Source of the DNA: Dehalococcoidia bacterium
GTDB lineage: Bacteria > Chloroflexota > Dehalococcoidia > GIF9 > AB-539-J10
DNA length: 64,000 nt
Direction of reading: 5' to 3'
NCBI GenBank assembly: GCA_030615625.1
Contig: JAUWYX010000003.1
Location: forward strand, 1 to 64,000
Of the stretch, positions 49,872 to 55,031 are shown piece after piece. Both the position numbers and the translations under genes were made by a program. The notes beneath the pieces are model-generated. The model was not told where the DNA came from, did no database searches, and saw only the letters and a program-made list of their open reading frames with translations. Position 1 is the stretch's first letter; every line of letters begins with the position of its first letter.

Positions 49872-50906
49872 TCAGGCGAAGCCAATCCCCGTTATCTCCA
49901 GGAGATTGCCATTAATTTTTGTTCTGGCGCCAAGAAATTCCTCGATAAGCCACAAGTTTGTCTCCACATGTTCAGTAATGCGAGGAACCGAATACCTTGC
50001 AAACCCCTCGGCTAAGCCAGCGTAGATTATGAGCTGGTCTGCGATATATCTATCAACTGCGGCGCCAGTTTTAACATCTTCTATAAATCTCTCCGCTACA
50101 TATCTGCCTATGGATTCCGAGCTTCTGCCTGGCCTCCCTGCCCTGTCGGAACCCACCCGGTTACCCAGGCTCGTCTCGGCATATATCGCCAGGGCTGCTC
50201 CTTCTTGAAGGGAGCTTTCGTCCTCGATTTTCTCAATTTCTGCTTTATAACCATAAGAGCTTAATACCCTCTGGCATTCCGCTGCCATCCTCTGGCTTAC
50301 CCTCTTTTCTTTCAAATGCGAGGAAAGCGCTATGCCTTTGATACTGAAAATCTCCCCCTGCTCGGTAAGATTTAATGGCTTCAATTTCCCCGACGGCTCA
50401 ACTCTAACTTCTATAATCCCACCGCCTCTTGGCACATAGCCAGGACGGATTATGTCAAGTTCAGCCCGGACACCCATTCGCTTTAGAAACGGAAGCAAAA
50501 CAAACTTCATATGATAAGCCGAAGGGGCAAAATCCTGAAACAGCCCGCCTTCCAGTCTGAATTTGGAGGGCTTTCGGGCAAAGCAAGCCAAAGGCAAAAG
50601 CGTCTGGGCCATCATGATGGTTGAGCCCGCCGTCCCTATATCCCAGCTGTACTCTCCTCCATCAAACCTTCCTCTGGGTGTGTAGGTAATCTCCTTAGAG
50701 CCCACCGCAGCATTGTCCACCGCCCCATGGCACATCTCCTGGCAAGCCTGCACCACTTTAAGATGCTGCGCCCTCAGCCCTGGCTTATCCCTCCCGGCCC
50801 TGATATTTTCTATCCTTATTTCTTTACCCAGCAGGCTAGCCAGCGCCACAGAATAGCGGACTATGGTTCCACTTCCCGACCTGGCTGCACCATCTATAGT
50901 TATCAT
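49872..50906 (-). CDS. rtcA: RNA 3'-terminal phosphate cyclase
   Basis: ATP-dependent conversion of RNA 3'-phosphate to 2',3'-cyclic phosphate. IDGAARSGSGTIVRYSVALA, IRAGRDKPGLRAQHL and PRGRFDGGEYSWDIGTAGST match the family. The catalytic His for adenylylation lies in ITEHVETNLWLIEEF. Full length at 344 residues. No rtcB or rtcR is adjacent; the 68-base gap to the sirtuin gene leaves co-transcription open. Confidence 0.9.
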   Translation of the reverse strand: MITIDGAARSGSGTIVRYSVALASLLGKEIRIENIRAGRDKPGLRAQHLKVVQACQEMCHGAVDNAAVGSKEITYTPRGRFDGGEYSWDIGTAGSTIMMAQTLLPLACFARKPSKFRLEGGLFQDFAPSAYHMKFVLLPFLKRMGVRAELDIIRPGYVPRGGGIIEVRVEPSGKLKPLNLTEQGEIFSIKGIALSSHLKEKRVSQRMAAECQRVLSSYGYKAEIEKIEDESSLQEGAALAIYAETSLGNRVGSDRAGRPGRSSESIGRYVAERFIEDVKTGAAVDRYIADQLIIYAGLAEGFARYSVPRITEHVETNLWLIEEFLGARTKINGNLLEITGIGFA

Positions 50907-53070: not shown

Positions 53071-53091
53071 TCATCTCACGTATCGCAACAG

Positions 53092-53217
53092 TTAAACTTC
53101 AATATTTTCTAAGGCTTCTTATCTGTTTTACCTTGACTTACACACCCTTGGAATACTGGGACATTCGACAATAGACAAACCGTCTTCATGCTGGTCAATA
53201 ATTATAACAAACTTCAT
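53092..53217 (-). pseudogene. Decayed HicB-like antitoxin gene
   Basis: From ATG 53217, with AGGAGG 6 bases upstream, 29 codons read MKFVIIIDQHEDG... and contain IVECPSIP, the N-terminal pattern of HicB (UPF0150) antitoxins. A TAA (53128-53130) then interrupts. In the same frame a second TAA (53119-53121) is followed by EALENI, the next conserved HicB segment, and a final TAA at 53092. So an intact frame has gained two stops and lost its C-terminal DNA-binding part. No hicA toxin was found beside it. Identification is by motif, not alignment. Confidence 0.65.
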
Positions 53218-53243
53218 CGCTTCCTCCTTCTTAATTCTTGCTA

Positions 53244-53328
53244 GCCTAGCGTTCTGTATGTATCTGAAGCCAGTGTGGACGATTTAGCTGATAGCGCAGC
53301 TCGAACCAGATACATACCATTGTTAGGC
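53244..53328 (-). other. attC-like inverted repeat
   Basis: On the minus strand the 85-base site begins with GCCTAAC (fits RYYYAAC) and ends with GCTAGGC, one mismatch from GTTRRRY. Just inside, GTATGTATCTG (complement of 53307-53317) pairs perfectly with CAGATACATAC (complement of 53256-53266) around a 40-base variable centre. The short unpaired spacers (AATG / AGAA) between the outer and inner arms match the architecture of integron attC sites. It follows the DGQHR gene and precedes the hicB remnant. No integrase is in the window. Confidence 0.4.
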
Positions 53329-53380
53329 GACTCCAAAGGTGAAGCGTTTTGCTTGGTGGCATATAAGACGTCACAACCAA

Positions 53381-54406
53381 TTATGGAGATGGACGAATAG
53401 GGGACAAAGACTTTTCTAACATGTCGGATAGTGTACGTTGCCCCTTCCGACCACCAAATGCACCAAGTTGCTTCCCGGAAAAATCGATAACTTCTGAACC
53501 TGTTTCAGTTGGTACCTGAAGCTTAGGTAAATCTTTTAGTAGATCTCTCATCGTAGACATAGTAAAGCTGTTTCTAATTCTGCAGTGGATAAGTACCTTT
53601 GGCATGATTAAAAGAACTGCAGCGACGCCAAGAGTCTTACACAAAACATACTTTCTACTAGCCCAAGCATTAGGGAATAAATCCCTCAGCACCAAAAAAT
53701 AGTCTTTTAATATTTTTATCTGCTCGCCAACAGGATAATCCTTCATAATAGCGTGTTGTAGGAGTCTCCTAAGTTCACTAATAAACGCTGCTTGGGAGAT
53801 TATTCCCTTTCCTACACCAAGCATTTTTATCTGACCCTTCCACGGCGAATCATCGTCTTCGTTCAAGCTTTTTACAATTTCGTGTGCTCTTTCATCTAAA
53901 TACTCAGCATCTTTAGTTAGGTCAATGAGGTCATAAATTAGGGATGGACTTACTCCCATTTGCGTTGAATTAATAACCTTAAATATAGTCGCTTGGTCGG
54001 CGGCAGCTAAACCTAAGTATGCGGCGACAAGTAAATCAAATTCCTTTCCCTCGCTGCGTTCAAAACCATATAACCTGTGCTGCCCATCAATAATCCATGC
54101 AACACCCGGCTCTCTTGGGATTATCATTGTTCCACGGTTACCATCGGCAGGCTCGAAGCGAGCCTTTTTTGGGTCTAGGTTAAGAATTATGCTATTTGGG
54201 AAAGTAGCTCTAGGTTTCTTTATATACTCTCCCACTTCCATTAATCTTTTAGAGCTTAGATATCTCTGATAACCTTGCGGATTTGTAATCTCTCTTCTAC
54301 TGACGTATGCTATTTCCCGCAATGTCTTGGAATCTATCACAAAAGCATAGAATTCTTGTCCACCTTGCTGAACTTTGGTGCAGTCTTTTCTAATTTCTGC
54401 TGGCAT
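53381..54406 (-). CDS. DGQHR-domain protein (DndB-related)
   Basis: This 341-residue protein has the eponymous motif in WIIDGQHRLYGFE (about 106-118), preceded by a region with YQRYLSSKRLMEVGEYIKKP and followed by a long helical part. DGQHR proteins include DndB of DNA phosphorothioation systems and proteins near deazapurine DNA modification and phage-defence loci. No dnd or dpd modification genes are here; the only partner is the HNH gene, whose stop lies two bases upstream and which supplies the ribosome site GGAGGTGG. A defence or DNA-modification-sensing role is inferred. Confidence 0.75.
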   Translation of the reverse strand: MPAEIRKDCTKVQQGGQEFYAFVIDSKTLREIAYVSRREITNPQGYQRYLSSKRLMEVGEYIKKPRATFPNSIILNLDPKKARFEPADGNRGTMIIPREPGVAWIIDGQHRLYGFERSEGKEFDLLVAAYLGLAAADQATIFKVINSTQMGVSPSLIYDLIDLTKDAEYLDERAHEIVKSLNEDDDSPWKGQIKMLGVGKGIISQAAFISELRRLLQHAIMKDYPVGEQIKILKDYFLVLRDLFPNAWASRKYVLCKTLGVAAVLLIMPKVLIHCRIRNSFTMSTMRDLLKDLPKLQVPTETGSEVIDFSGKQLGAFGGRKGQRTLSDMLEKSLSPIRPSP

Positions 54407-54408
54407 GT

Positions 54409-54888
54409 TTAACCACCTCCTTCAAAACATTTATTTGATTTTCCTATATTACATTCTGTGCATAAAGTCTGGAGGTTATCAGCAACCGTCGGTCCTCCCC
54501 AATCCCACGGTAGGATATGGTCTACTTCCAGTTCTACATTTGGCGCCTTCTTGCCACATCTTTGACAAATAGACTTATCCCGTATTAGTACTTGATACCT
54601 TAAAGATGGGGGGATGTCTTCTCTTGTCTCAGAAGGATCCCGAACAAATTTGTACCAATAATCCACATCTTCATACTTCCATTCATGCTTTGTCATCTGC
54701 TCTAGAAATTTCCAATATCGCTCAAAGGACTTCCCCTCACGAAACCATATCTCGTTCGGCGTCAACAAAGATTTTACTCTATTTTTTAATTCAGTTTCTG
54801 TTCCTTCCAAGAATTCAACATAGTCTATTCCTGCTAAAGAACATAAGTGCCTTATTCTTTCTATGGATTTTACCTCTTTTTCATTCAT
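54409..54888 (-). CDS. HNH endonuclease
   Basis: This ~159-residue protein has a C-terminal HNH domain. CQRCGKK supplies a zinc CxxC, then LEVDHILPWDWGGPTVADN (catalytic His in VDHI, Asn in ADN), then LCTECNIGK with the second CxxC. The N-terminal ~90 residues are helical and unassigned. It is directly coupled to the DGQHR gene, which suggests a two-gene system with a nuclease effector. A TTG 21 bases upstream of ATG 54888 is possible; neither has a strong ribosome site. Confidence 0.82.
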   Translation of the reverse strand: MNEKEVKSIERIRHLCSLAGIDYVEFLEGTETELKNRVKSLLTPNEIWFREGKSFERYWKFLEQMTKHEWKYEDVDYWYKFVRDPSETREDIPPSLRYQVLIRDKSICQRCGKKAPNVELEVDHILPWDWGGPTVADNLQTLCTECNIGKSNKCFEGGG

Positions 54889-55031
54889 CGTTACACTTGC
54901 AGTCGCCAAGCAAAATTTTATCTAACTTTAGTATATACGAAATTTAGCTTTTTGGTCAGTAGTCCATCCGACGAGTAATGGGCGCAGCCTCCTGCACCAA
55001 GATAGCAATGCCATTAGGGCAAGCGCTGTTG

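Follow-up and report, generated by a model that had tools for sequence, protein, structure and literature searches.

A putative attC relic behind an HNH-DGQHR gene pair in a Dehalococcoidia genome

Genes and hairpin at the locus

The window, a 64,000-nucleotide stretch of a Dehalococcoidia bacterium contig, carries an HNH-nuclease gene, a DGQHR gene, and a hairpin, one behind the other on the minus strand (Table 1). The DGQHR protein scored 189.9 bits against the NCBIfam DGQHR model and 57.8 bits against Pfam DndB, and its best PADLOC family was DpdB at 124 bits. The R'' box of the hairpin begins 52 bases past the end of the DGQHR gene, on the side and strand that a gene cassette requires. The original prediction had placed the site after this gene unit, and it does follow the pair in cassette orientation. 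The prediction also saw a toxin-antitoxin (hicB) remnant in the open reading frame fragment on the other side of the site. That label is unsupported, as Pfam, NCBIfam, and PDB searches with the 53217-53131 fragment all came back empty.

The inverted arms described by the prediction are present at 53244-53328, where sequence and inverted-repeat analysis gave 7-base outer boxes, an 11-bp inner stem, and a 40-base loop. The order on the minus strand is GCCTAAC (53328-53322), AATGG, TATGTATCTG, the loop, CAGATACATA, CAGAAC, and GCTAGGC (53250-53244), and the inner stem pairs 53256-53266 with 53307-53317 over 11 bp with zero mismatches. Single-stranded DNA folding of 53244-53328 gave z scores of -2.5 (minus strand) and -3.4 (plus strand) with 200 shuffles per strand. 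A geometry scan then required no more than one mismatch over both R boxes together, formation of all seven box pairs (G-T allowed), and a nested stem of at least 9 bp. It returned one instance in the 64-kb window compared to none in 150 first-order Markov replicates, the pairing rule being satisfied on the plus strand only, by a G-T pair whose minus-strand equivalent is an A-C mismatch. When the stem was relaxed to at least 6 bp, the mean was 0.05 per Markov replicate. An Rfam search of the whole window yielded zero families at the gathering score.

Table 1. Features of the proposed cassette and its attC-like site (positions in the window)
Feature	Position	Strand	Evidence or remark
attC-like relic, whole site	53244..53328	-	Bottom strand read 53328 -> 53244; matched end to end by models R1 and R2
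R'' box GCCTAAC, fits RYYYAAC	53322..53328	-	Sequence, model alignment
L'' arm TATGTATCTG; middle G at the expected extrahelical-base position	53307..53316	-	Model alignment
L' arm CAGATACATA, with one extra C pairing with the L'' G	53257..53266	-	C is an insertion in R1 and R2 alignments
R' box GCTAGGC; canonical form GTTRRRY	53244..53250	-	Sequence; GCT in 0/47 and 0/27 distinct matches
GTTAGAT, possible outer cassette junction (G at 54926)	54920..54926	-	At homology start of relatives; role inferred
DGQHR (DndB/DpdB-like) gene, proposed cassette gene	53381..54406	-	NCBIfam, Pfam, PADLOC
HNH-nuclease gene with an uncertain start codon, proposed cassette gene	54409..54909	-	Pfam HNH, 52.3 bits
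Broken ORF fragment of 28 codons, past the site; Shine-Dalgarno-like AGGAGG just upstream	53131..53217	-	Called "hicB" in the original prediction

Fit to attC models and departures from it

Integron integrases (IntI) are present in the phylum, as 42 of 400 genomes scored over the TIGR02249 cut-off in a positive control, and Chloroflexota are among the phyla that have been listed in print as carrying integrons. attC arrays were read from stretches beside 20 integrase genes of the phylum and from the integron stretches of four plasmids. Nine attCs made up covariance model R1, and the 49 matches of R1 (E ≤ 0.05) on 32 integron stretches formed the basis of model R2; the window site was excluded from both. 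Some of the 49 matches duplicate a place or are a reverse-strand match, and 47 distinct rows were kept. When the attC model was run with stricter filters on the 400 phylum genomes, 67 were matched at E ≤ 1e-4, namely 36 of the 44 with IntI (E ≤ 1e-60) and 31 of the 356 without. This enrichment in IntI-bearing genomes supports the model.

With filters off, the top match in the 64-kb window was 53244-53328 on the minus strand for both R1 (23.9 bits, E = 0.002; runner-up, 15.8 bits) and R2 (21.0 bits, E = 0.0076; runner-up, 12.9 bits). Both of our models thus matched exactly at the predicted site, full-length each time and 8 bits above the next window match. Over 96 kb elsewhere in the genome, taken as background, the attC model peaked at 11.3 bits. 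However, because the E-values rescaled to the 1.62-Mb genome are about 0.05 (R1) and 0.19 (R2), the covariance score by itself is suggestive, and the window site was absent from the list returned by filtered whole-genome searches with R1 and R2. The second window match, at 46693-46651 on the minus strand, is too short for an attC and was put down to chance; its counterpart in the relative G242 (L183) scored 12.7 bits.

The site was compared with the attCs of gene cassettes, both class 1 (L206 and L207) and from arrays of the same phylum (L043, L047, and L050). It shares with them the R'' box, the nested L''/L' arms, the canonical spacers of 5 and 6 bases, the variable loop, the canonical position of the would-be extrahelical G, and the place after a gene (R1 alignment and folding). 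It differs from them in an AT-rich stem and in two defining features. The R' box has GCT in place of the GTT cleavage core, a triplet found in none of the 47 and 27 distinct model matches, and the correctly placed G is not extrahelical but paired to an extra C. For these two reasons, the site is read as an attC relic and not as an intact attC. The original claim of an attC-like site therefore stands as far as model match, spacing, and orientation go and falls short on intactness. A strict R''/R' pattern search misses the site on account of its deviant R' box. Given GCT at the cleavage box, the paired extrahelical base, and the failure to detect IntI, in which the host genome also differs from the comparison systems, the site is probably inactive at present.

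A plus-strand reading was also considered. It would give a perfect R' box, GTTAGGC, but R'' then becomes GCCTAGC. Strand choice is set by extrahelical bases and spacers, according to PMC8946536. The plus-strand reading was rejected since R1 and R2 report the minus strand only, which also fits the gene.

The junction in relatives and attC matches elsewhere

The segment lies between an ABC operon and a DUF763 gene. In the relative G409, the end of the ABC-side homology and the start of the DUF763-side homology are 84 bp apart, compared to a gap of 1.95 kb in the window. Other relatives fill the junction with other genes, for instance a DNA methylase gene (G405) or a ParE-like toxin gene (G419). 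The junction (window 53071-54930; L181-L193 and L198) is a hotspot of differing accessory genes, most of which point away from DUF763. The DUF763-side homology starts at 54911-54930 in L061, L063, L064, L065, and L088, of which L065 and L088 overlap and represent a single genome. GTTAGAT, the possible outer junction, adjoins a conserved GTATATAC block upstream of DUF763. The similarity of L063 extends slightly past it, which makes the exact junction tentative. Many relatives share a conserved block, GTATATACGAAATT (window 54927-54942), upstream of DUF763. It has a YTAAC-like neighbor and might act in transcription, as promoter or operator, or in recombination.

No attC was found at the ABC/DUF763 junction of relatives with R1 (16 loci, E ≤ 5), and R2 reached at most 12.7 bits over 12 loci. 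The idea that this junction is an attI is unsupported, as these searches gave no attC there in other genomes. R1 and R2 also gave no second attC at the window locus in searches over the 64-kb window. Both absences weigh against the attC relic. Separately, the start of a 344-aa gene (49872-50906) recurs as a short copy ahead of the ABC gene in a few congeners (L183, 8887-8926; L191, 3544-3622), a rearrangement trace.

Matches to the DGQHR protein (E ≤ 1e-10) were found in 7 of 120 relatives, including the genome itself, and the other six are 29 to 37% identical. As a further point against the cassette, no attC lies alongside the DGQHR relative of any of three congeners (L252, L255, and L257). 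A wider survey kept 80 DGQHR loci, from named genomes, of 103 found, and two of the 80 had attC matches (E ≤ 0.01): L139 (Coriobacteriia) with four and L128 (Thermodesulfobacteriota) with one. In both, an attC comes directly after a methylase-like gene that is itself behind the DGQHR gene. The L139 gene belongs to the Dam family, and that of L128 is presumably methylase-like, a label taken from the similar start of its protein. This context indicates that a DGQHR gene near an attC is not confined to the present genome. In L139 (2697-6175) and L128 (4290-7492), the attC matches directly follow a long DGQHR gene paired with a methylase-like one, perhaps a defense cassette.

The genome holds three other attC-like matches, in answer to the prediction's question about further copies: C11:162287-162345 (31.2 bits, E = 7.5e-4), C11:165556-165613 (24.1 bits, on stretch L211), and C12:128-186 (18.6 bits, E = 0.71). 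The C11 pair sits between what we take to be aspS-like and shikimate-kinase-like genes, and about 2.9 kb at this locus is missing from the matching junction of G402. The two-attC cluster spans L211 10088-13614. The flank of C12:128 is common to congener stretches L236, L242, L243, and L245, which have other attC matches and other genes. One chromosomal junction, between what we assume to be glyS-like and adenine-deaminase-like genes, is a cassette locus without IntI that five genomes of the genus share (L212, L236, L242, L243, and L245), and its genes and attC matches vary among them. Across the genus, attC matches were found in 13 of 20 genomes at E ≤ 1 and in 9 of 20 at E ≤ 0.001.

The search for an IntI gene that would accompany an integron came out negative. 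The highest TIGR02249 score in the genome, 90.6 bits in a single piece, stayed below the cut-off of 265, and the same model at the threshold of this search also matched 14 of 14 control genomes. None of the 20 genus genomes had IntI at E ≤ 1e-30, in a sample that includes incomplete genomes, so that IntI could be missed. The original prediction offered two options, an integron-like or a cassette remnant. Since IntI was not found, the evidence agrees with the second and not with a resident integron.

Explanations for the site and their meaning

We regard the site as most likely the relic of an attC that closed a minus-strand cassette of the HNH and DGQHR genes (about 54925 to 53250). This view draws on the model match, the spacing, the site's position and orientation, the lack of the segment at the matching junctions of relatives, the further attCs, and the undetected IntI. 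The cassette would have been placed beside the DUF763 upstream region by an integron integrase that recombined the folded bottom strand of the cassette's attC and that has since been lost or was never resident. It might have come as part of a small array, or singly to a secondary site, and past R' there may be the original target or a second cassette, now truncated. According to PMC8618304, cassettes can end up without an integrase through off-target insertion, through rearrangement, or when intI is lost.

A lone cassette may instead have arrived at an attG-type secondary site, in which case the GCT to the right of the junction would be target sequence and not decay; we consider this possible but doubtful. 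The joined flanks make a plausible promoter-proximal empty site, an excised circle joined at GTTAGAT would carry that sequence as a canonical R' box, and L061 and L080 read AAGCTAAG/CAGCTAAG at the equivalent place. Cassette insertion at attG has been published (PMC12901181) and would account for both a lone cassette among ordinary genes and a non-GTT triplet right of the junction; the exact target here is a candidate. However, this account relies on the tentative outer junction and leaves the paired extrahelical base unexplained.

The main challenge to the attC relic comes from an ordinary hairpin 3' of the DGQHR gene, marking the transcript end or stabilizing the mRNA, whose resemblance to attC arose by chance. 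A perfect 11-bp stem at a gene end would look alike, the two defining attC features failed, and the genome-wide E-value is not decisive. Yet a terminator scan lists no T run at the site. As expected of an attC, GCCTAAC is canonical, the outer box is paired, and the two spacers agree, and this geometry is rare. We therefore judge a chance hairpin unlikely. A mobile palindromic repeat (MITE or REP-like) would explain why either end of the element carries inverted repeats, but the element is present in one copy genome-wide, which makes this origin highly improbable.

If the attC relic is accepted, the locus joins a known kind. Integrase-less cassettes occur as CALIN or single attC elements (IntegronFinder classes), in which, according to PMC9024848, cassette genes and attCs are found with the integrase neither nearby nor in the genome; here, too, no integrase was detected. 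However, a default CALIN needs at least two clustered attCs, whereas the window locus has one, decayed site; the C11 locus has two. The window site is a decayed single site of this known kind. Of greater interest is how cassettes are spread through a genus in which no integrase was detected. It adds a genus with chromosomally scattered cassettes and an undetected integrase to a phylum with true integrons. The locus also suggests that the DGQHR/HNH gene pair travels as a cassette.

A more far-reaching reading would have the same junctions hold different cassettes in sister species. Under this reading, the genus would gain and lose cassettes without a resident integrase, a visiting IntI or another tyrosine recombinase would act on attC in trans, and the region upstream of DUF763 would be a preferred landing place; taken as a whole, we rate this reading as quite improbable. 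The tyrosine recombinases of the genome lie on C11 at 30 to 33 kb, on C3 at 16 kb and 130 kb, and on C8 at 184 kb. Sister species with intact and decayed attCs would allow the decay of an attC to be traced. If cassettes still move in this genus, which recombinase moves them becomes a testable question.
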